Part shown: positions 10,404-26,553 of the stretch, piece after piece
Numbering within the stretch: position 1 is the stretch's first letter
Layout of the letters: each line of letters begins with the position of its first letter
From: a virus
Direction: 5' to 3' (one strand)
DNA: 36,926 nt
Virus record (IMG/VR): IMGVR_UViG_3300042562_001006
Span: 1 to 36,926 of that record
Notes under the pieces: model-generated
What the model saw: the letters and a program-made list of their open reading frames with translations, nothing else
Database searches by the model: none
What the model was told of the DNA's origin: nothing
Position numbers and translations under genes: made by a program

Positions 10404-11075
10404 CTATTGCTTAAGCTGAGACTGAACGTCTTGCAACTTCTGCAAATAAATCGCCGCATCCAGCATCTCCTCTTTTGCGTGCTGCATCCAATCTCCCACG
10501 CTCAAGTCGTCGCGCCTCATGGTCGTGCCGTACTTCAAAGCGCCGGCGGCCTGCCGTGCCCGAATCTGCTCGATAATTTTGTCCTCCACGCTTTGGCCGC
10601 GCCAATAGCGGACGAGTCGCAAAGTCTCGTGCTTCTCCGAAACGCCATAAGTAAACTGGTCCTCCCACTCCGGCATAAACACGTCCGACTCGTGCGGCAT
10701 GTTAAAGCAGTGCGGAATATGCGTGACGACGATCGACTCGCAGAGCGGCAGGAATTGCTTGTAGATCTCGGCTCCTCCGATAATCCAGACGTTGCCGCCC
10801 CTGCGCGCACAAGCAGTCTGTGCGCTCTCTATTCCTGGAACAAAGGTCACGTCTTTGCTGTTTGGTCTTACGTCTCTGCTCAGTACCACGTGGTGACGAT
10901 ACTCTAGCAGCTTAGGTAGTGAGTCGAAAGTCTTGCGGCCCATCAAGACGGTCGCGTATCTGGTGCGGCTGGCAAAGTGCTGCATGTCCGCCGGACTGCT
11001 CCAGGGAAGTTTGCCGTGTCGGCCAATGCGATTTTGTATGTCGATGGCGACGATTGCGTTGTAGGTGGTTTTCAT
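10404..11075 (-). CDS. Dihydrofolate reductase fused to a C-terminal nucleotide-associated domain
   Basis: 223 residues. Residues 1-158 are a complete DHFR: AIDIQNRIG, LPWSSPADM with catalytic Asp30, GRKTFDSLP and WIIGGAEIY (97-105). DHFR regenerates tetrahydrofolate for dTMP synthesis; no phage thymidylate synthase is visible here. Residues 160-223 (KYGTTMRRDDLSVGDWMQHA, then EEMLDAAIY) resemble the short MazG-like/phage nucleotide-associated helical module. The start overlaps the upstream stop (TAATG). Confidence 0.85.
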   Translation of the reverse strand: MKTTYNAIVAIDIQNRIGRHGKLPWSSPADMQHFASRTRYATVLMGRKTFDSLPKLLEYRHHVVLSRDVRPNSKDVTFVPGIESAQTACARRGGNVWIIGGAEIYKQFLPLCESIVVTHIPHCFNMPHESDVFMPEWEDQFTYGVSEKHETLRLVRYWRGQSVEDKIIEQIRARQAAGALKYGTTMRRDDLSVGDWMQHAKEEMLDAAIYLQKLQDVQSQLKQ

Positions 11076-11571: not shown

Positions 11572-11933
11572 GGTTGTAGCTCCTTGGTTAGCCGCTCGAC
11601 TTCGGCAGCCAGAATCCGTGCGGCGGCTGCTAGTTGCGCGTGTCCGCGCAGCTCGTCTTGGGCTGTTACCTCGCGTTCCATTTTGTCGGAGGCCCAGCAA
11701 TACTCCGACAAGTTGGAATCCTTGTATTTTGCGAAATAGATAGCCGCTCGCACGGCTTCTGTGATTGGTATTGAGGTCATGACTTTGCTTGTAATCACAG
11801 GCTTATGACTCTCACAGCTCTCGTAAGAGTCTGCGAGGATTTGATGCTGAGTGCACCATCCGGAGATTTTATGTTCGTCGTCTGGTGACCAAAACTGGCA
11901 CTTTACGCACGCTGGTAGATTTTCCATACTCAT
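11568..11933 (-). CDS. Hypothetical protein with N-terminal Cys-rich motif and C-terminal coiled coil
   Basis: 121 residues. CVKCQFW with later GWC and SCESH suggests a metal-binding N-terminus. A helical, probably coiled-coil C-terminus (QLAAAARILAAEVERLTKEL) follows. The family is not recognised. It overlaps the RNA ligase stop by ATGA, so it is made with it. Confidence 0.55.
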   Translation of the reverse strand: MSMENLPACVKCQFWSPDDEHKISGWCTQHQILADSYESCESHKPVITSKVMTSIPITEAVRAAIYFAKYKDSNLSEYCWASDKMEREVTAQDELRGHAQLAAAARILAAEVERLTKELQP

Positions 11934-12547
11934 GACTTCAAAGAGGATTTTGGTACCCCGTCATTATCCAAAGTCATTTTGAATCCGACGTTCCCGGCGG
12001 TATGAAACACCACGATGCCTTCGGGGTGCATGAATCCGGGCGCGGCTACGCTGCCTCGCTGGCTTAGCTCATATAATGCGGATTCGGCCATCGTTGTTAT
12101 ATTAGTGCCGCGCCTCAGGATCGGTACCAAACGGCAGCACCTCGGAAGAACGTCCTGCATTTTCACGATGCGCGGGTCAGCGGTCGGGATCTGCTGGGGT
12201 GTCTTACCATGCAGGCACCAGCGAGACACGTTAAACAAGCTGAACCCACGCTCGTTTAGTCCATAGTTGCGCTGTATGCCGCGTCCCCACCACTCACCAA
12301 AGTGGCGTCCCGGCCCGAGCTGCATCAGCTCGTCTTGGTGGTCTCGTGCCCACTTAGCGAATCCAAAATTATCGTCCTCGGGAGTGATCCACCGGGTACG
12401 GCTGCCGGTCAGCATTCTGCCGTCGTCGGTGATGTAGATCTGCGCGTTGGTGCCGTCGATTTTTTCGGTGATGATGACTTCGCGTTGCAGGCGTGCCATT
12501 TTGGGGAACGGCGTGAATGGGTGTTCTTGGGTTGTGTTCATGGTCAT
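11930..12547 (-). CDS. RNA ligase of the T4 Rnl2-like family (minimal)
   Basis: 205 residues, single adenylyltransferase domain. Nucleotidyl motif EKIDGTN (28-34, Lys29), GEWWGRG (84-90), EGIVVFH (176-182) and FKMT (189-192, Lys190) give motifs I, III-like, IV and V in order. It would activate with ATP and join RNA ends. The protein lacks the T4 Rnl2 C-terminal domain. An ATG at 12547 (or MNTT at 12541) follows the leader CAACC. It may repair tRNAs cut by host defence. Confidence 0.8.
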   Translation of the reverse strand: MTMNTTQEHPFTPFPKMARLQREVIITEKIDGTNAQIYITDDGRMLTGSRTRWITPEDDNFGFAKWARDHQDELMQLGPGRHFGEWWGRGIQRNYGLNERGFSLFNVSRWCLHGKTPQQIPTADPRIVKMQDVLPRCCRLVPILRRGTNITTMAESALYELSQRGSVAAPGFMHPEGIVVFHTAGNVGFKMTLDNDGVPKSSLKS

Positions 12548-15686: not shown

Positions 15687-16826
15687 TTAGATTGCAGTAA
15701 AGACAAGAGCAGTGCCGCCAGCGTTGAGAGTGATGCGGTAGCGGGTGCTGGTCCCGGCTGCTTTCATGATGATGCCGCTCGTGACCGTTTCGATTTCAAC
15801 GTCGCCACCTGTCACTTGCAACTTCGAGCTAGGAGCCGTCGTGCCGATGCCGACGTTGCCTGCTGCGGTGATGCGCATTCTTTCGGTGGCGTTTGTACCA
15901 AAAAAGATTGCCGCAGAACGCCTGTTAAAAAAGTATGCTTCGTTTGGAGAGGGAGTCGTCGTTCCACCTAATCCAAAGACAAACCCACCTAAATTGCCTG
16001 CAAAGGCTGTGTCATTGTCAAATGCAAGCTCTGTATACCCTGCGCTATTTGTGTTTTGTAACAAACAGAGATTAACCCCGCTAACGTTTCCAACAACGGT
16101 TAAAGGTCTGCTAGGAGCCGTCGTGCCGATGCCGACGTTGCCGGTCGTGCCAATGGTCATGCGGCGTGATCCGCCCGTTACGAAATCGAGGGGACGCAGC
16201 GTAGCACCTGCCGTTTCTGTCCCGATTTGAAAAGCAAGATCGGTCCCGTTGTACTTCGCAAACATCCGCTCGTAGACGGTGTTGCTCGACGAACTCGTCC
16301 CATAAACATTGAACGTCTGCGCGTTGGTGCCGTTGCGGAGGGCTAGGGTGTTGGCTGCATCGCGACACAAGGAAACCTCAATGCTTCCATCTAGTGTAGT
16401 ATTTCCTCCCCACGTCACACAGTAATCTCGTGCCATATGGTAACCATATGAGGCGGCACTTGAAGCAATCTGCATAGTGCCTAGCCCGATACCATTAAGA
16501 CCATTATAATTAAAAGCGCTAACAGCTCCTGCTTTATTTACATAAAATCTGCTTGTTCCACCCACCTGCAAATCCAAAAGCAAAGAGCTAGCCGCGCTCG
16601 CCGTGCTGATTGCATTCACCTTTAACGCCGTGAACGCCACCGCCGCATCATTCCACGTCTGACTGACCGTAATCGGAGCCGACGCACCTGCAAGCGTCCC
16701 ACTATTCAACAAACTATTCCGGCTCACCTTCTTCGAGATAGCGCCCGCCGTGTCCCACACGAACACCCAGTCGGCATCCGCTACGAACGTCTTTTCTGTG
16801 AACTGAGAAAGATTGAGATTGGCCAT
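15687..16826 (-). CDS. Tail fibre with VGIGTTAPS repeats
   Basis: 379 residues. The N-terminal part (NLSQFTEKTFVADADWVFVWDT) resembles phage fibre attachment segments. The C-terminal half contains at least two 'GNVGIGTTAPSxxLxV' repeats, a beta-structured repeat found in tail fibres and bacterial adhesins. The chain ends in VTSGIIMKAAGTSTRYRITL. It likely forms a trimer for receptor binding. Confidence 0.7.
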   Translation of the reverse strand: MANLNLSQFTEKTFVADADWVFVWDTAGAISKKVSRNSLLNSGTLAGASAPITVSQTWNDAAVAFTALKVNAISTASAASSLLLDLQVGGTSRFYVNKAGAVSAFNYNGLNGIGLGTMQIASSAASYGYHMARDYCVTWGGNTTLDGSIEVSLCRDAANTLALRNGTNAQTFNVYGTSSSSNTVYERMFAKYNGTDLAFQIGTETAGATLRPLDFVTGGSRRMTIGTTGNVGIGTTAPSRPLTVVGNVSGVNLCLLQNTNSAGYTELAFDNDTAFAGNLGGFVFGLGGTTTPSPNEAYFFNRRSAAIFFGTNATERMRITAAGNVGIGTTAPSSKLQVTGGDVEIETVTSGIIMKAAGTSTRYRITLNAGGTALVFTAI

Positions 16827-17040: not shown

Positions 17041-17283
17041 TTAAGCGCCGACTACTGTGCCCGTGCTGGTCGCGGTGTTGGAGTCTTTGGCCTTGATCGT
17101 GATCGGCGTGTTGGTCGGGATGATGTTGATTGCATCCTTAACGCCCATCTCCGCAATCAAAGCGCCGTTAGTGGCCAGCACGTACACCGGCTGCGTTGCT
17201 TCGATGCCGTAAATGGTGTTTGGCGTGACCGTCAAGGACGCGCTCGTGACGCCTGCTGCGAGGCTGAAGGTTTGTGTGGCCAT
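17041..17283 (-). CDS. Small structural protein, 80 aa
   Basis: MATQTFSLAAGVTSASLTVT followed by strands (PNTIYGIEATQPVYVLAT). A beta-rich small protein with a Thr/Ala-rich tail. Its ATG follows a TTGACA with 19 bases between. It may be a head- or tail-decoration protein of the fibre module. Function unknown. Confidence 0.45.
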   Translation of the reverse strand: MATQTFSLAAGVTSASLTVTPNTIYGIEATQPVYVLATNGALIAEMGVKDAINIIPTNTPITIKAKDSNTATSTGTVVGA

Positions 17284-17310: not shown

Positions 17311-18489
17311 TTAGGGCATCGGGAAGAGCTTGGGATACAACCGCACCCGCTTGGTGTTGGTCGGCAGCACTGGTCCCATATCGACCACAAAGCGATGGCT
17401 CAAGTCGCGAGGATAGCCATTGTTGAGAGTGGTAAACGATGTGCTTGGCACGTCCGTCCATGTGATGCCGTCATCGCTCCACTGCGGAGCAAAGTACCAA
17501 GTGACAAACATTCTGGTGGCTGCTGGTACTGCGGTCAGGTAGGCTGTCCGCACTCCGCCCGCTTCCACGATCTGCACCGATGGCCCTGTCGCTGGCAGGC
17601 GCCGTGATGACATCGGATTGCCTCCGTAAATCATCTCTTCAAAATTGGTGAAGCCGTCGCTGTCCGGATCGTTGTAGAGACCGTCACTGCCAACAGTAAT
17701 TGCATACGCTGCCTTGAATGCGTTGAAGTTGGCGGTAGCCACAGTCGAAACCGCCGTTGTTGGATCGTCGGTCAGGTAGACATTTGCACCGCTGCCAAAG
17801 ATTTCAGATGCACCACCAGCCAAACCATAGCGCGCATACCCAAGCCCAACACGCTGCATCAGTGCCGTTTCCTCCGGCCCCCAGACTGCTCCGCCAGCAG
17901 GCGGCCAGTAGGAAATGCCGTCATAGCCTTGGTTTTTGAAAGTGGTTAAACCTGCTTCGCCGAACGCCGATGGCGGCCCGGTCGCGATCCAATAGATGGA
18001 CACGGTTGGGAAGTATGGTCGCATGGTTGCCGCGCTTACCGACGGAAAGAATAGACCGGCCAGGAGCGTGACGCGCTCAAGTGGAAAGCCCGCCTGCTGA
18101 ATCGCGTTGAGCATGGCGTTCTCTGTACCGGCCACCTTCGGCTCGATCATGACGCGCACCCGATACGGTTTAATCGCAAGCAACGCCTCCACCAGCGTCG
18201 GCACTTGCTGCCCGGCATACGATGGTCCAAAATCGACCCCTGCATCCAGCGCCTTGATCTGTGCCAGTGTTTTGCTGACCACCGTCCCGGTGCCGTTGGT
18301 CGTGCGATCCACGGTTGCATCGTGAATGCACACTGGCACCCCGTCAGATGTCAAATGCAGGTCAAGCTCGATCATGGCAACACCTGCCTTGGCAACGGCA
18401 TTGTAGCTCTGCACTGTGTGCTCTGGCTGCCCTAGAAGGTTGCCACGGTGTGAGCGAAGCTCAGCAAGATATGGTTCGCGGTTGTTCAT
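17311..18489 (-). CDS. Glycerophosphodiester phosphodiesterase-like tail enzyme with Verrucomicrobia-type C-terminal domain
   Basis: 392 residues from an ATG at 18489 (ATGA overlap with the fibre stop). Residues 10-245 are a GDPD TIM-barrel: HRG (14-16), PEHT (22-25), ELD (41-43), IHD (55-57) and IEPK (116-119, Glu117), all the catalytic and metal residues. Residues 274-285 (DPDSDGFTNFEE) plus YGGNP are a Ca-binding-type repeat common on exported proteins of Verrucomicrobia, followed by a 90-residue beta domain ending RVRLYPKLF. There is no signal peptide, so delivery by the virion is inferred. It may cleave phosphodiester polymers or lipids at the cell surface. Confidence 0.78.
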   Translation of the reverse strand: MNNREPYLAELRSHRGNLLGQPEHTVQSYNAVAKAGVAMIELDLHLTSDGVPVCIHDATVDRTTNGTGTVVSKTLAQIKALDAGVDFGPSYAGQQVPTLVEALLAIKPYRVRVMIEPKVAGTENAMLNAIQQAGFPLERVTLLAGLFFPSVSAATMRPYFPTVSIYWIATGPPSAFGEAGLTTFKNQGYDGISYWPPAGGAVWGPEETALMQRVGLGYARYGLAGGASEIFGSGANVYLTDDPTTAVSTVATANFNAFKAAYAITVGSDGLYNDPDSDGFTNFEEMIYGGNPMSSRRLPATGPSVQIVEAGGVRTAYLTAVPAATRMFVTWYFAPQWSDDGITWTDVPSTSFTTLNNGYPRDLSHRFVVDMGPVLPTNTKRVRLYPKLFPMP

Positions 18490-20213
18490 ACTGAAGGAGC
18501 CCCCATTGCTATAGCCAGATTGAAAAGCATCAAAGAGAATGTATCCGTTGCCGCGCCAGTAGTACCAATAGCCCGGCCAATATAGAAGAGAGACGAAGGC
18601 TGGTTGTGCAAGATGCCACCCGGCCCAAGTAGGCTGCCGGTCGTGTTGCCGTTGTAGAAGAGAAACCCGCCCAGTTTGTTGTCCCGGATAATGGCGTTTG
18701 CGTTGGTGTTTGAAGTCGTCAAATCCGTCGTGTCTGCGATACCCGCCGCCAGCCGTCTCCGGGTGCTGAATAGCGTCCCCTTGCGAGCAAAGTGGATCAA
18801 GCCCAGCGGATTTAACGCGCCCACCGTTCCACCCACATAAAGCTCCGGCAGACCAAGGTTCACATGTAAACTGCCGCCCGTCGATCCAACCGCCGCCCGG
18901 AACACGCCCGGCGTGGTCGTGCTGCGTGACGTGGTAAACCACCGATTCGTTCCGCCCGAGACTGCATCGTTCCGCGCACCGATCATGGTGTTGTCGTCCG
19001 TCAGCGGTGGCGAATGCGAGTAATAGGTTAAAGAGTAGTCCGTTTCCTCCCATACTTGTGCCACGGTTGAATCAAAGTCGATCATGCCGGAGTTAGTCAC
19101 TCCGGTCGGCGCGATGTATCCGCCCGGCTGCGTAAAATCACCGGCATTGTTGGCGCCGGTCGATGAGTTGCGAATGAATGGTCGGCTGGTGCTTGCCGGA
19201 TGCAGCCAGTCAAGAAGGTTGGCTTGCATGTTGCTGGCCCAGACTGGCAGCATTAGACGCGAGCGGCTGGTATTACCGCTGATCATGCCCATTGCATCGA
19301 CGTACTGGTAAAACGTGTTGATGGCGACGATCTGCGCATCAGTGAGCGTGACGCCTGCATCATTGAGCGATAGCAAGGTATCGCGCCCAGAACGCGGAAC
19401 ACGCGCCAGATCCAGCAGGAGATTGATTGATGCCCAGTGAGAAAGAGTGCCGCCCGCATCACCAAGTGGAATGCCAATCGTGTCCGTGAGCGACGGCGCC
19501 ACCGTTGGCAGTGAATGCACCTCAGAGAATGAATGTGTGTGAGATGGGGGCACTCCACCCGCACCGCTGACCAGTTGCCAATCACCAGCCGTGACGCCAA
19601 TCGACACCCAGACTTCCAGTGTATCGACCTGCACACCGATCAAGCCGAGTTTGTAAGGCACCGACGCCAGCCGGGCCTGTGTATTGGCGAATGATTCAGT
19701 TCCGCCGGCACTCTGCGCCACCGCACCGTAGACGATGCCGTTAATGTTGCGGAATGAGTAGACATCCGTCCTCGCTCCTATGCTCTGCACCGGGATTGAG
19801 TCGTTCGGCCATTTGATTGTCCCTGGCCACGTGACGATGTAGTTACCGCTTGTGTTGGTCACTGCGACCGTAATGCCTTGACCCGGCAGCGCGTTGGAAA
19901 ATGTGAACGTCGTATTTGCCGCCAGCGTCTTGTAAAAGCTCGTGCCGGTCGCCCAGTCAATGGCTGCGGCAGTCACGTTGGCGTCAGTGCCAACAACCGC
20001 ACGCACCGTCAGCTTGCCTTGAATTGTCTGGTCGGTGGTGAATGTATTGGCCGCCCCTACCAATGCCGCAGAAAGTGGAGCCAGCACTCCCGACCCATTA
20101 AACCCGATCGCCTTGTTGGTGTTTGCGCTCCCAAGCAGATCAATCCATTGATTGTCGCCGGAAGCGTCGCGTTGGATCAGTGAAACATTGGTTGGCGTAG
20201 TGACGGCGCTCAT
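18486..20213 (-). CDS. Tail fibre / receptor-binding structural protein, 575 aa
   Basis: A long beta-rich chain beginning MSAVTTPTNVSLIQRDASGD. The middle carries GSANTNKAIGFNGSGVLAPL and a SHTHSFSEVHSLPT segment that resembles the His-containing collar of phage fibres. The C-terminal part (Asn/Thr/Gly-rich, GGFLFYNGNTTGSLLG) is probably a lectin-like sandwich. Coupled by ATGA to the GDPD downstream and by TAATG to the gene upstream. Confidence 0.65.
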   Translation of the reverse strand: MSAVTTPTNVSLIQRDASGDNQWIDLLGSANTNKAIGFNGSGVLAPLSAALVGAANTFTTDQTIQGKLTVRAVVGTDANVTAAAIDWATGTSFYKTLAANTTFTFSNALPGQGITVAVTNTSGNYIVTWPGTIKWPNDSIPVQSIGARTDVYSFRNINGIVYGAVAQSAGGTESFANTQARLASVPYKLGLIGVQVDTLEVWVSIGVTAGDWQLVSGAGGVPPSHTHSFSEVHSLPTVAPSLTDTIGIPLGDAGGTLSHWASINLLLDLARVPRSGRDTLLSLNDAGVTLTDAQIVAINTFYQYVDAMGMISGNTSRSRLMLPVWASNMQANLLDWLHPASTSRPFIRNSSTGANNAGDFTQPGGYIAPTGVTNSGMIDFDSTVAQVWEETDYSLTYYSHSPPLTDDNTMIGARNDAVSGGTNRWFTTSRSTTTPGVFRAAVGSTGGSLHVNLGLPELYVGGTVGALNPLGLIHFARKGTLFSTRRRLAAGIADTTDLTTSNTNANAIIRDNKLGGFLFYNGNTTGSLLGPGGILHNQPSSLFYIGRAIGTTGAATDTFSLMLFNLAIAMGAPSV

Positions 20214-20773
20214 TAGGAAACAGCAGGGACGGAATAACTGACACCATCAACGGTGACGACGATCATCCCATCAATAACTGTGACCTCCCCGTCAATCGGT
20301 CCGGGTGGTGTGTCGGTTACTGCATCAAATCGGTAGATCGCACCGTTGTAAGCAAAGGACACAACCTCATTGACCACGGAGAATGCGATGGTGGTCACCG
20401 GCGTTAGTGACAAGCCGGACGGAATCACCTCGATGTTGCCGGATCTTAGAAGGTAAGGGAAGCCGTTGCTGTCGAGCCCGCCAATGGCAATCCAATAATT
20501 GTTGCTGTTGATCTCGTCGGAGAGCACGAGATTCATTTGTGCGGCGGTCAGAACAAACGTGACGGCGCCCCCTGCAACGTACCCCGCCGATGATGCCAGC
20601 GGAGTTGCTCCGACCTCTCTGGCATCGTTCTGGCGTTTCCACAACTCCAGCACCCATTCATCCATTGCCGGAGCGGCTGGGACGGCGCCCGTGATTAGCA
20701 GCGGCGTCGTTGAGAACACCGGCAGCATCCCAAGGTCGGCGGTCGTTTCGGTGAGTGAGATTGTACGAGTCAT
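20213..20773 (-). CDS. Structural protein of the fibre module, 186 aa
   Basis: Opens MTRTISLTETTADLGMLPVF; beta-rich, with an IEVIPSGLSLTPV region and VDGVSYSVPA ending. The first 110 residues resemble N-terminal domains of phage fibre or BppU-like baseplate proteins, but I do not have a firm match. Its ATGA overlap with the endolysin gene places it between lysis and fibre genes. Confidence 0.5.
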   Translation of the reverse strand: MTRTISLTETTADLGMLPVFSTTPLLITGAVPAAPAMDEWVLELWKRQNDAREVGATPLASSAGYVAGGAVTFVLTAAQMNLVLSDEINSNNYWIAIGGLDSNGFPYLLRSGNIEVIPSGLSLTPVTTIAFSVVNEVVSFAYNGAIYRFDAVTDTPPGPIDGEVTVIDGMIVVTVDGVSYSVPAVS

Positions 20774-21330
20774 CGTGTGGCTTGAAAGTGCATGCTATCG
20801 CGGCTCCAATAAGCCCCGCCGGAAAGCCAGCCTTCGTCGGCAAAGTACTCCATGACCTCCAGCGGCATGGATGCGTCGGTCGGCCAGGCGGTATTATTGC
20901 CGTTTGATCCTGCCATTAAGTCAATCGCAGCGCCCCAAGCGTGCAAGCTCTTGCGCGATCCGCCGCGCATGTTGCGGTCATTGTAGCAGCCCGCGTATTG
21001 CTTGAGCACGTGCGGATGCGTCTTGCTGATCGCAGTCAGCACGCGATGTAGGCTGGATGCGACCCGCGTGTGGCAGCGAATAGTTTTGACCGCTTGGCTT
21101 TCGTAATGCACGCCAAGGTCGGAGACCGATAGATTGACCAGATTGCTCTCGTCACCCGGCTGACCGTAGAACGCGATAAGCGATTGGTCGTCCTGCATCG
21201 GCCACTGCACCGGCACTGGTCGCAAGCGGTCGAGATGCTTCTGGCAGGCAGCACGAGACTTGGGCCCCCACACACCATCAGGAACGACGCCGATCTTTTC
21301 CTGCATCAGTTGGATGTCCTGTTTTGTCAT
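20770..21330 (-). CDS. Endolysin: M15-family peptidase with N-terminal peptidoglycan-binding segment
   Basis: 186 residues from an ATG at 21330 (the longer frame from 21486 is a false extension). Residues 4-34 (DIQLMQEKIGVVPDGVWGPK) are a short peptidoglycan-binding motif. Residues 128-138 (SLHAWGAAIDL, zinc ligands His130 and Asp137) and HFQATR (His181) give the M15/VanY-type catalytic site that cleaves peptide cross-links in the wall. No signal peptide, so release depends on a holin. Confidence 0.82.
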   Translation of the reverse strand: MTKQDIQLMQEKIGVVPDGVWGPKSRAACQKHLDRLRPVPVQWPMQDDQSLIAFYGQPGDESNLVNLSVSDLGVHYESQAVKTIRCHTRVASSLHRVLTAISKTHPHVLKQYAGCYNDRNMRGGSRKSLHAWGAAIDLMAGSNGNNTAWPTDASMPLEVMEYFADEGWLSGGAYWSRDSMHFQATR

Positions 21331-21428
21331 GGGGAAAAAGAACTCAGAATCCAGCCAAGCATGAAAAACCAGCATACAACCATGAGAGCGAAGAACGCGA
21401 CGTGAAGGAGTGCTTGGAGCGTTGGCAT
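21327..21428 (-). CDS. 33-residue single-span membrane protein, holin candidate
   Basis: A very short gene. The product is MPTLQALLHVAFFALMVV, then CWFFMLGWILSSFSP, which is one transmembrane helix over most of its length. Its start overlaps the upstream stop (TGATG) and its stop overlaps the endolysin start (ATGA), so it is translationally sandwiched. The overlap architecture argues it is real. A short single-span holin or antiholin fits; no family assigned. Confidence 0.6.
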   Translation of the reverse strand: MPTLQALLHVAFFALMVVCWFFMLGWILSSFSP

Positions 21429-21736
21429 CAGATGCGCTTGGTAAGTTTGGCGACGACCCACGCGAGCTGCACGATGACACTAGCAAAGTCGATCCCCTGC
21501 TGCACCCAGGGAGGTGTGCCGTGCGTCAGAGTAAAGCGCGGAGATGTGATGATCTCCCGCACCCGCATCGCTTTATCGAGTCCGGACACCGGCATCTTGC
21601 TGGCCAGCGTCACATTGTCCACGATGACTTGGAATTGCTCGTTCGACAAGCCAGCGACTAGCAGCCGCGCAGTTTCGGTGGCCTTGGCTACCGCATCGCG
21701 ATGCCAGAGTGATTTGAACCATGTAAAGAATTTCAT
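21428..21736 (-). CDS. Hypothetical lysis-cluster protein, 102 aa
   Basis: The ATG at 21736 is preceded by GGTGAG, one of the few Shine-Dalgarno-like sites in the window, and replaces a TTG at 21751. MKFFTWFKSLWHRDAV is amphipathic and the C-terminus (FASVIVQLAWVVAKL) is hydrophobic, so it may be membrane-associated. It lies between the lipoprotein and the 33-residue protein. Function unknown. Confidence 0.5.
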   Translation of the reverse strand: MKFFTWFKSLWHRDAVAKATETARLLVAGLSNEQFQVIVDNVTLASKMPVSGLDKAMRVREIITSPRFTLTHGTPPWVQQGIDFASVIVQLAWVVAKLTKRI

Positions 21737-23909: not shown

Positions 23910-24785
23910 TTAGATGAAGGTGACAGTCGGCAGGCTGATAAACACGCTGCCGACTTGATGGTGCGTGATGGTCGATCCGGATCGGGTTAGAAGTCGGAGG
24001 TTGGCGGTTGTCGCACTAGAAGAAGGCTTGCTGGCCGACACCACAAAGGACGCACTCGATACCGTCCATTTTCGGATGTTTGCGGCAGCCTTCGTGTAAT
24101 TCTGAAATTGCACAAGCAATCCCTCCTCGCCGCCTTCCCCGTACCCGCCTTGGCCTCCATCTCCTGCATTTTTTGGTTCTGAAGGTGGAGAGTTTGTTCC
24201 GGCGGCGCCACCACCGCCACCAGTGCCGGGAGAGCCGCTTGACCCATTGCCTCCAGCCACGCCATTTGCCCCTTCTCCGCCTGTGGTCTTGCCTCCGCAT
24301 CCGCCGCCGCCGCCGCCACCACCACCGCCACCCGTGCCGCCGACGACGGTGAGCGTCTCTTGATCCGCAGTCGAGAGAGCACCGACTACTTGGCCTGTTG
24401 ATGGCGTAAATCCGATCTGAAGCCAAACAGAGAACCCAGTAGCCACCGCTAAAGTTGCGCCTGCTACAGTCGCCACCGATTCAGTCCAGCCACCGCTGCT
24501 TGGGTTGTTCACATCGTAGGTACTCCACGAAACGCCCAGCACTTTGCCGCCCAGGATGATGACGTTCTCGCCGGACAGAACGCCGGTGAAGTCGATAACG
24601 CTGGATGTGGCCGTCGCTCTGCCCTGCTTGCTTGAGACGATGATTCCGTCCTCGGTCTCTTGCAGCGTAATTCCGTTGCCAGCAATCGGCATCTGTTCGT
24701 AGATGGCTTTGCGGAACATGGCCAGCGTTTTCCCCTTGAGGAAATAATGCAGATTGCCAAAGAAGTTGGGAAAATCAGGGAACAA
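23910..24785 (-). CDS. Glycine-rich tail protein C (TTG start), 291 aa
   Basis: The TTG start at 24785 is supported by its paralogs, which all begin M-[L/F]-P-[D/E]-x-P. Residues about 1-150 are a beta-rich head (GKTLAMFRKAI, EQMPIAGNGITLQETEDGII). Residues about 150-225 are a polyglycine block with runs of up to eleven Gly. The C-terminus (ITHHQVGSVFISLPTVTFI) is shared with B and A. Glycine-rich sandwiches of this type tip the tail fibres of some T4-like phages. Confidence 0.7.
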   Translation of the reverse strand: MFPDFPNFFGNLHYFLKGKTLAMFRKAIYEQMPIAGNGITLQETEDGIIVSSKQGRATATSSVIDFTGVLSGENVIILGGKVLGVSWSTYDVNNPSSGGWTESVATVAGATLAVATGFSVWLQIGFTPSTGQVVGALSTADQETLTVVGGTGGGGGGGGGGGCGGKTTGGEGANGVAGGNGSSGSPGTGGGGGAAGTNSPPSEPKNAGDGGQGGYGEGGEEGLLVQFQNYTKAAANIRKWTVSSASFVVSASKPSSSATTANLRLLTRSGSTITHHQVGSVFISLPTVTFI

Positions 24786-25674
24786 AGGAGCTGATAAAGG
24801 TAGCTGCTGGCAGCGTTACGTGATACGAGCCAGCATGATATTGAGTGACCACGCCGTTCGTTTGTGATGCAATGCGAACGTAAATGTTGGTGGCTGGCGA
24901 TGCAGTCGGTTTAGTTGTGTGAACCTCAAGACTGGCAGAAGTGATTTGCCAGCGCCTAAACACCATTGAAAGATTCGTGTAGTGGGTAAACGATTTTGCC
25001 TGTCCGTTTCCGCCTGCTGCTCCGTTGCCTCCATCTCCACCTTCTGCTGGCGTTCCTGATTCGGAGTTTGATGTCGAATTAACTCCTCCAGGCGTGTAGT
25101 AGCCGGGACTGCCAGCAGTTTGTCCTGATGCGGCCTCACCGGTTGCGCCAGTAGATCCGACCGTGCCATCTCCACCGGCCCCGCCGCCACCACCGTCACC
25201 ACCCGCACCGCCGCCGCCGGTCGTGACCGACAAATTTGCCGCGCCTATAGCCGAAAGCGCGCCGCTCATATTTGCGTCGGTCTGTGAAAGCTGGATGCGC
25301 AACCACACGCTTTGACCGTCTGCCACAGCCAGCGTAGAAGGCCCGACAGTAAACTGTTCCGCTAGCCAGTCAGTCGGTAAAGGGTTGCTCATGGTTGGCG
25401 TTCCCCATGTGGTGCCGATGACCCGACCCACCGTAATATCGAGAGAGTTGGTGGCCGGTAGTGACGCCTTGAAGTCATGATTGATGGCGACCGTTGGCGC
25501 CACCTCCACCTGCTGGTCAGCGTGTAGCAGAATGCCCGCATTCGTCTCCTCCAGCCGAATGTTGGCGCCCTCGATTGGCGTCTGCATCGTGATCCGCCGC
25601 ACGATCTTTTCGAGCGTTTTACCGGTCAAAACGTAAACGTCGCCGAGGTTAAAGTTTGGAATGTCCGGCAGCAT
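24775..25674 (-). CDS. Glycine-rich tail protein B, 299 aa
   Basis: Same plan as C and A: MLPDIPNFNLGDVYVLTGKT opening, a central Gly-rich block (GGGGAGGDGGGGGAGGDG, about residues 151-225), and a C-terminal AGSYHVTLPAATFI segment. The start overlaps the upstream paralog's stop by adjacency at 25674/25675 and its stop overlaps C by 11 bp. Probably a receptor-binding or tail-tip protein. Confidence 0.7.
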   Translation of the reverse strand: MLPDIPNFNLGDVYVLTGKTLEKIVRRITMQTPIEGANIRLEETNAGILLHADQQVEVAPTVAINHDFKASLPATNSLDITVGRVIGTTWGTPTMSNPLPTDWLAEQFTVGPSTLAVADGQSVWLRIQLSQTDANMSGALSAIGAANLSVTTGGGGAGGDGGGGGAGGDGTVGSTGATGEAASGQTAGSPGYYTPGGVNSTSNSESGTPAEGGDGGNGAAGGNGQAKSFTHYTNLSMVFRRWQITSASLEVHTTKPTASPATNIYVRIASQTNGVVTQYHAGSYHVTLPAATFISSFVP

Positions 25675-26553
25675 TTAGGCGATGATGAAAGTGATTGCTG
25701 GTGGCGTGATTGAGATGCTGCCAGCAACATGCTGCGTGATGCTGGTCCCGCTAATGGTCGCCAGTTGAATCCATGAGACTGCCTCGCTCGATGCACCTTT
25801 GGCCGTGTGTAGCGAGATGCCATTAATCGACCATTTCCGGATCTGCGCCGTGCCCTTAGTTGCGCGTGTGAAAGTAACACTGCCCCCTTCTCCCCCTGCG
25901 CCGCCGTAGCCCCCAGCACCCCCGCTGGCGCCGTAGCTGTTGCCGAGTCCGGTCACCCTAGTTGGCGGAGTTGTAAGAATATCCTCCACAATGCCTCCTT
26001 GGCCGCCAACACCGGTGAAATCTCCGCTGTCTCCGCCTGAGCCATCTCTTCCCACAATATCCGGCCACACTCCGCTGTTTGCACCACCGCCACCACCACC
26101 ACCACCACGTCCGCCCGCAGCACCGGAGATGTTGTAAGTGGTCGTGCCAAGCGGTCCGGTCGTAGTGGTGTCGCTCTCCGACCACAGCACGCTGAGCCAG
26201 ACTTGTGTCACCGTGCCCGTCAAGGTGCCGCCGATGTAATTGACCTCTCGCTGCCAGTCGCCCGGCGTCGGATTGTCTCCCAGAATTGCCCCCCAGAGCG
26301 GGTACAGCAACTTGCCGGGTGCGACTACCACATTCGTCCCATCGAGCGACACAGCAAAGCCTAGAGCGAAAGGAGCTGCCACTCCGCCAGAGCCAAGGCG
26401 GTCGATAATCTGTCCGTCCTTGGTCTCGGTGATGATGACCGTTTCCGAGCTGAGCAGCCGCTGGAGTTTGATGCGATCGACCAGCCGGTTGAGCAAAAAG
26501 CCCGACCGTCCGCCGTTGACCTTCGGGTCGATGACTGGAAGTTCTGGCAGCAT
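25675..26553 (-). CDS. Glycine-rich tail protein A, 292 aa
   Basis: MLPELPVIDPKVNGGRSGFL start, a beta head with VIITETKDGQIIDRLGSGG (the same E-T-x-D/N-G-x-I core as B and C), and a Gly-rich block around residues 143-230 (GGRGGGGGGGGANSG, GGAGGYGGAGGEGG). The C-terminus AGSISITPPAITFII matches the paralogs. Start lies 1 bp after the upstream gene. Confidence 0.7.
   Translation of the reverse strand: MLPELPVIDPKVNGGRSGFLLNRLVDRIKLQRLLSSETVIITETKDGQIIDRLGSGGVAAPFALGFAVSLDGTNVVVAPGKLLYPLWGAILGDNPTPGDWQREVNYIGGTLTGTVTQVWLSVLWSESDTTTTGPLGTTTYNISGAAGGRGGGGGGGGANSGVWPDIVGRDGSGGDSGDFTGVGGQGGIVEDILTTPPTRVTGLGNSYGASGGAGGYGGAGGEGGSVTFTRATKGTAQIRKWSINGISLHTAKGASSEAVSWIQLATISGTSITQHVAGSISITPPAITFIIA

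Follow-up and report, generated by a model that had tools for sequence, protein, structure and literature searches.

A GDPD with a C-terminal Ca2+-loop module, encoded next to a tail fibre gene, as a candidate part of an exchangeable receptor-binding cassette in a family of tailed phages

In this work, we describe a 392-aa phage protein (P0001) in which a GDPD domain is followed by a C-terminal Ca2+-loop/beta module, and whose gene is exchanged between related phages together with the preceding tail fibre gene. With a probability that we put at roughly 55%, the phage is a small tailed one whose tail tip carries a receptor-binding cassette of two genes, and P0001 is the enzymatic half of it. 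The window, by which we mean the whole stretch of DNA that was analysed, comprises 36,926 bases and is the entire virus record IMGVR_UViG_3300042562_001006, possibly a fragment. The genes for terminase, portal, major head protein, tape measure, endolysin and fibres, which make up the head and tail region, lie in its right part on the minus strand, and all window features given below with coordinates lie on that strand.

The P0001 gene occupies positions 17311-18489 as a single open frame of 392 codons and a stop, opening with MNNREPYLAEL and closing with KLFPMP. The preliminary description had placed a GDPD fused to a C-terminal module here without giving a strand; the fusion is confirmed on the minus strand, and the plus-strand reading was rejected, as stops interrupt its frame 1. 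The GDPD domain takes up residues 1-247 (17749-18489). Its barrel had been called complete from the motifs HRG, PEHT, ELD, IHD and IEPK, which lie at residues 14-16, 22-25, 41-43, 55-57 and 115-118, and it does look complete: PF03009 matches residues 14-125 with an E value of 1.9e-25 (90.8 bits against a gathering score of 23.6), and the closest PDB chain is 2pz0 (E 1.4e-24), which is also the top Foldseek match (3.2e-17) of the AlphaFold model of residues 1-249. This model, obtained with a 30-row alignment of the window protein and viral loci, predicts an alternating alpha/beta barrel with a mean pLDDT of 79.8 and a pTM of 0.81, the weakly modelled parts being residues 1-7, 198-202 and 230-249; its best 50 Foldseek matches are all GDPDs or GDPD-like phospholipases D. 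When P0001 is aligned with 14 GDPDs of Verrucomicrobiota, H14, R15, G16, P22, E23, T25, E41, D43, D49, H56, D57, R62 and K118 are invariant. In the 30-row viral alignment H14, E41, D43 and H56 are invariant, R15 is kept in at least 90% of rows and K118 falls outside the conserved columns. With catalytic motifs and barrel intact-looking, hydrolysis of glycerophosphodiesters is the predicted activity. Among PHROG families the first match of P0001 is a tail fibre family, and the next two are named phosphodiesterase. A signal peptide, already reported as missing, is absent by hydropathy alone, the top 19-residue mean near the N-terminus being 0.2.

Residues 248-392 make up the Ca2+-loop and beta module. 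The Ca2+-binding type loop DPDSDGFTNFEE (residues 274-285; 17635-17670) is followed by GGNP at residues 289-292 and presents the pattern D.D.DG..N..E......P at the expected spacing; D276, D278, E285 and P292 are invariant in 25 rows, and the loop reads DPDGDG in three sister phages. The C-terminal beta region (residues 293-392; 17314-17613), delimited by profile, hhalign and a low-confidence model consisting mainly of strands, includes WSDDGITWTDV and a terminal RVRLYPKL stretch. Residue 392 is the chain end, so the module is terminal in P0001. An HMM built from 22 Verrucomicrobiota proteins, with P0001 left out, scores P0001 at 28.9 bits over residues 246-353, a region that takes in flanking F..F...Y and WSDD..TWT elements; as controls, 1000 shuffles reached at most 7.2 bits and the other open reading frames of the window at most 4.3 bits. 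In hhalign the module profile matches residues 255-348 with a probability of 94.8% (E 5.6e-8). The beta part alone (residues 291-392) gives a non-significant 5.9 bits (E 0.93), and the module signal therefore comes from the Ca loop, from what flanks it and from WSDDGITWTDV. The model of the module is poor (pLDDT 53), with a helix, a second helix after the Ca loop and then strands. Residues 265-392 matched no Pfam family at E<=10, TSP3-type and dockerin repeats included, and in the PDB their best match had an E value of 0.45. A match of residues 241-362 to a VP0 chain (9f5s, E 0.0063) was taken as chance because the module alone did not match this chain. The module found no match in INPHARED phages, and PLSDB plasmids were rejected as its source after yielding three weak matches (E 0.9-5).

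The module had been attributed mainly to Verrucomicrobiota, and among the three phyla tested, namely Verrucomicrobiota and two control phyla, this is supported. Profile A3, made of 20 of the 22 proteins above (the near-duplicates L088 and L098 being omitted) and the module of phage contig L005, matched at E<=1e-5 in 67 of 145 Verrucomicrobiota genomes versus 1 of 151 and 1 of 149 genomes in the control phyla, all sets being samples of their phyla and the sole positive in each control phylum being the genome picked for its motif match. The controls are the two phyla to which an Anaerolineae genome and an Erysipelotrichia genome belong, with names taken from record titles and from what we take to be their placement; Kiritimatiellae are counted, on our assumption, with Verrucomicrobiota. 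In each of three Verrucomicrobiota genomes, all 29 of 29 scored candidates match A3. P0001 by itself matches module regions in 5 of 11 Verrucomicrobiota genomes that were picked for the module (E 1.1e-5 to 8.2e-4), and also the Erysipelotrichia genome G046 over 32 residues (E 7.4e-4).

When 582 stretches from a motif scan of genome contigs were checked against the L005 module, at least 39 loci were confirmed, and 35 of the 39 listed are titled as Verrucomicrobiota groups; the scan is mildly circular, as the A2 patterns used drew also on the window, one sister and contig L006. The remaining four are one 'uncultured bacterium' and three contigs, of Anaerolineae, Erysipelotrichia and Thermoplasmata, that show the motif alone with matches of at most 36 query residues; some of the listed Verrucomicrobiota matches are motif-only as well. 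Matches reaching query residue 118 or beyond number 22 among the listed loci, all of them titled Verrucomicrobiota. The module forms the chain end in 22 of 22 bacterial proteins examined, in agreement with the tail-end position described before; these are mostly large proteins, with open frames of 284-1796 aa, and they are the ones from which the HMM was built. The Verrucomicrobiota version, DPDGDG..N..EY..GG.P with a beta part, shares with P0001 the Ca loop, the spacing to P292, the W344 region and the terminal position; there it ends open frames of 284-1796 aa, whereas the copy in P0001 ends a phage GDPD.

The module family is rare in viral contigs. The motif scan found the loop in five stretches, three of them from the window's own phage family and the others L005, where it ends a 1600-aa protein, and L006, where it sits inside a 927-aa protein; A3 confirmed the L005 contig and added a short motif match in L172. 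The 1600-aa protein (L005:1553-6355, minus strand) lies, judged by eye, among portal, protease and major head genes, and starts with what resembles a signal peptide; it holds RCC1-like and cadherin-like repeats, likewise judged by eye, and ends in the module. This module is 85% identical to that of a Prosthecobacter debontii MAG protein, and the whole protein looks like host-type cargo.

As to the origin of the fusion, the preliminary description had proposed capture from the host. The module is carried by none of the GDPD ORFs examined in bacteria, 32 from the 30 best loci (L134-L163) and 16 from 15 further stretches (20 minus five that repeat earlier loci, counted once); three of these 48 ORFs (2 of 32 and 1 of 16) run off a contig end, the best match L134 included. 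With the module missing from all these bacterial GDPDs and a host that is no more than probable, the data lend no support to capture of the fusion as a whole. P0001 has a match at E<=1e-5 in 205 of 387 Verrucomicrobiota genomes, with at most four candidates scored per genome, and the matches listed fall in the GDPD part. On the viral side the best 80 of 97 relatives were taken, of which L204 and L250 gave no GDPD ORF; among the 78 loci with such an ORF, the module is confined to the three that belong to the window's own family. The barrel comes last in 61 of the 76 other viral GDPD ORFs, and the remaining 15, with at least 100 residues behind it, show no module-profile match; in 34 of the 76 it stands behind at least 300 residues, whereas in P0001 it comes first. 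Stand-alone GDPDs of about 270 aa are present in other viral contigs. With the module absent from 48 bacterial and 76 other viral GDPD ORFs, the fusion is seen only in this phage family, and addition of the module could have taken place on the phage side. INPHARED holds 322 records with a GDPD match, 245 of them named Staphylococcus phages, and in no record does a single region reach 80% coverage of the query. Phage-tail GDPDs are already known; the fusion of a GDPD with a Ca2+-loop module is unfamiliar, and no description of it was found in literature titles and the opening parts of abstracts. We also observed GDPDs of about 617 aa from Verrucomicrobiota (L266:1865-3718 and L278:2099-3946, minus strand) with another C-terminal tail, which ends in an FFKL/FLRL-type strand and has no Ca loop; such bacteria do fuse GDPDs to C-terminal domains.

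Placement in the tail module, claimed before, holds: the gene lies in the tail/fibre region, directly after the gene of a 575-aa tail fibre (18486-20213; PHROG matches, some named tail fibre), and the fibre stop and GDPD start overlap in an ATGA (18486-18489) that is kept in 4 of 4 phages. Upstream of the pair are a gene for a 186-aa protein (20213-20773) and, in the same late gene run, the endolysin (Peptidase_M15_4 by Pfam/PHROG; 20770-21486); downstream is a gene for an 80-aa protein (17041-17283). Both the 186-aa and the 80-aa protein are present in sisters. The second fibre gene below the cassette (15687-16826) has sister copies that are 45-60% identical over 49-100% of their length and represents a second variable tail locus.

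A search with the portal gave 56 viral loci, 55 with 87-100% identity and one with 58%. The GDPD was found in 3 of the 33 records searched (30 of the 56 portal loci together with L004-L006), most records being fragments that do not necessarily cover the locus. Eight sister records, picked for size or for having the GDPD, were compared whole; the cassette locus is visible in only these 8 of 57 records or pieces, and the slot counts that follow are not frequencies. Three sisters (G011, G026 and G033) have the GDPD with 95-99% identity, always with the 575-aa fibre (95-98% identity), so that fibre and GDPD occur together in all four phages having the enzyme. It is absent from G016, G017, G019, G020 and G029, where the slot is filled by a spike of 978-1006 aa (G016, G017, G020) or a fibre of 397-407 aa (G019, G029). 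Related N-terminal anchors are found in all spikes and fibres filling the slot; in the window the anchor amounts to about 43 codons (20083-20213) and is common to the sisters with other spikes. DNA homology with G016, G017 and G020 ends at 20082-20083 (fibre codon 44) and resumes at 17315 (GDPD stop) in 3 of 3 comparisons, and these edges delimit a swapped cassette at 17315-20082 comprising the distal fibre and the GDPD coding region. Around the slot the short-fibre phages G019 and G029 match in patches.

The spikes of G016, G017 and G020 share slot and N-terminal anchor region with the cassette fibre; they differ from it in being one chain without a GDPD. A beta-helix signal was obtained in the two that were scanned, with Pfam Beta_helix at 2.5e-8 in G020 and at 1.2e-5, just under the cut-off, in G016 (G017 was not scanned), while a Pfam scan of the short fibres of G019 and G029 gave no match. 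The beta-helix fold is common in depolymerases. G026 has a GDPD 98% identical to P0001, yet for its tape measure the alignment takes in 39% of the length, at 35%, and in G033 a 95% identical GDPD goes with a 78% identical portal. Since GDPD identity is high in spite of the diverged tape measure or portal, fibre and GDPD appear to move between phage backbones as a cassette. Both the GDPD domain and the module are under strong purifying selection, since dN/dS, computed from the four phage sequences, lies at 0.017-0.043 over the whole gene, with 0.006-0.049 in the barrel and 0.026-0.066 in the module.

Known phage GDPDs provide partial parallels. The C-terminal domain of phage K gp155 (9f5m) and the phi812 central spike (9eul), which we take, partly from their PDB titles, to be tail proteins, are among the best 50 Foldseek matches of the barrel model and have the same fold and motifs as P0001. 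In the staphylococcal chains 9eul and 9euf the matched stretches are at residues 603-686 and 619-702 of 832-848 aa, whereas in P0001 the barrel comes first with the module behind; the staphylococcal tail GDPDs moreover serve phages of Gram-positive hosts. We know of no such C-terminal module on the GDPD of Lactobacillus delbrueckii phage Ld17. This enzyme is a baseplate glycerophosphodiesterase (Cornelissen 2016, as cited in PMC6116005), a GDPD in the adsorption apparatus as proposed here for P0001, in a phage of a Gram-positive host. For the enterococcal tail-associated GDPDs, some of whose genes are located in the tail module beside a peptidase, PMC10194240 gives three architectures: the GDPD on its own, joined to a membrane domain, or as BppU-GDPD. 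The module of P0001 is in none of them.

The host is probably a Verrucomicrobiota bacterium, as far as sequence likeness can tell. The window portal matches that of phage contig L005, which carries the Verrucomicrobiota-type module, with 139 bits. Portal profile A1 matched 14 of 240 sampled Verrucomicrobiota genomes at E<=1e-20 (best 192.6 bits) and 0 of 251 sampled genomes in one other phylum, a set without a known positive. Among 91 pattern matches in genome contigs there was no relative of the portal, and only distant portals were found there by profile. The portal matches and the module together favour Verrucomicrobiota as a probable host. In the best 15 rows of the INPHARED portal search an Exiguobacterium phage has the highest score (102 bits), and Verrucomicrobia phage P8625 (88 bits) is top by coverage and identity; the latter was rejected as a close relative, as its likeness to the window is limited to portal, terminase and helicase plus a single short match of low score.

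Several other genes of the window are worth recording. At 23910-26553 three genes in a row encode proteins of 291-299 aa that contain glycine-rich stretches, probably a tandem family; in G029, where the region is partial at the contig start, the other two of these three proteins align to the one present at 34-39%. The product of 10404-11075 has a DHFR-like N-terminal part followed by about 60 residues which, by eye, resemble a MazG/pyrophosphohydrolase-type segment, and is possibly a two-domain nucleotide enzyme. A KIDGTN motif as in RNA/DNA ligases is seen by eye in the product of 11930-12547, a protein found in G026 and G029 of the eight sister records, some of which are incomplete.

In the tail-tip reading, P0001 would be a depolymerase whose synthesis is tied to that of the fibre by translational coupling at the ATGA. 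It would sit on the virion beside the fibre and, during adsorption, would cut a glycerophosphodiester bond in a host surface polymer or lipid; cutting of surface polymers had been suggested in the preliminary description as well. In the presence of Ca2+ the module may hold the enzyme on the fibre or on the host surface layer, where the cell's own module-bearing proteins are expected, and the exchangeable tail part that carries P0001 probably recognises the host. Use on the virion, which the preliminary description had also advanced, gains indirect support because the gene is swapped together with the fibre in the receptor-binding slot; the location itself we infer. P0001 has no anchor of its own, and its barrel comes first instead of last as in most of the other viral GDPD ORFs; both points speak against a place at the tail tip. 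Together with the position of the gene just downstream of the endolysin (20770-21486) in the late run, which makes a role at release possible, the lack of an anchor and of a hydrophobic N-terminus, as well as the stand-alone viral GDPDs of about 270 aa, would also fit a soluble late protein that is released at lysis and degrades phospholipid head groups or envelope debris, or prevents virions from sticking to debris. We consider this unlikely, as the gene and the fibre are swapped together, the edges falling within the fibre gene and on the stop codon of the GDPD, and as the gene is missing in the five sister records that have another spike or fibre. A -1 frameshift at the ATGA could also join fibre and GDPD into one polypeptide, a spike of about 967 aa, but this is very improbable. 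In its favour, all four phages keep the overlap and the preceding ATGGGGGCT run, the summed length comes near the 978-1006 aa of the replacing spikes, and in many viral GDPDs the domain follows a long N-terminal part; by eye, however, no heptamer allows good re-pairing in both sites, and ATGA overlaps normally mean coupled re-initiation.

The module too can be read in other ways. Its likeness might be convergent: a common Ca2+ loop of TSP3/dockerin-like type would then be joined to a phage beta domain of separate origin, and nothing would link the module to Verrucomicrobiota. The non-significant score of the beta part alone, the motif-only contigs of Anaerolineae, Erysipelotrichia and Thermoplasmata and the match of P0001 to an Erysipelotrichia genome would allow this. 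Against convergence stand the profile match with its F..F...Y and WSDD..TWT elements, the hhalign result, the matches of P0001 alone in 5 of 11 Verrucomicrobiota genomes chosen because they have the module, and the same extreme C-terminal position, and we hold convergence to be rather improbable. The module could further be a sorting signal that places the GDPD outside the infected cell, in keeping with its being the last domain in all 22 bacterial proteins examined, mostly large ones; this seems scarcely credible for a protein without a hydrophobic N-terminus that matched no NCBIfam sorting family, with a module that has no Pfam family match.

Phage-tail GDPDs are known mainly from phages of Gram-positive hosts, and teichoic acids are thought to be their target, while the surface polymers and phages of Verrucomicrobiota are little studied. 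A GDPD with intact motifs, under strong selection and within a receptor-binding cassette, points to a glycerophosphodiester target on another type of host, probably Verrucomicrobiota. The module is abundant in this phylum and the copy in the window has no Pfam match; the phage version offers a small, testable handle on the binding partner of the module. A more specific idea, that a phage of a two-membrane host docks its tail-tip GDPD in the surface layer by means of the host's own surface-display module, we regard as doubtful; if true, it would mean a homing device borrowed from the host secretome, and a glycerophosphate-containing surface polymer of Verrucomicrobiota would be the phage receptor.
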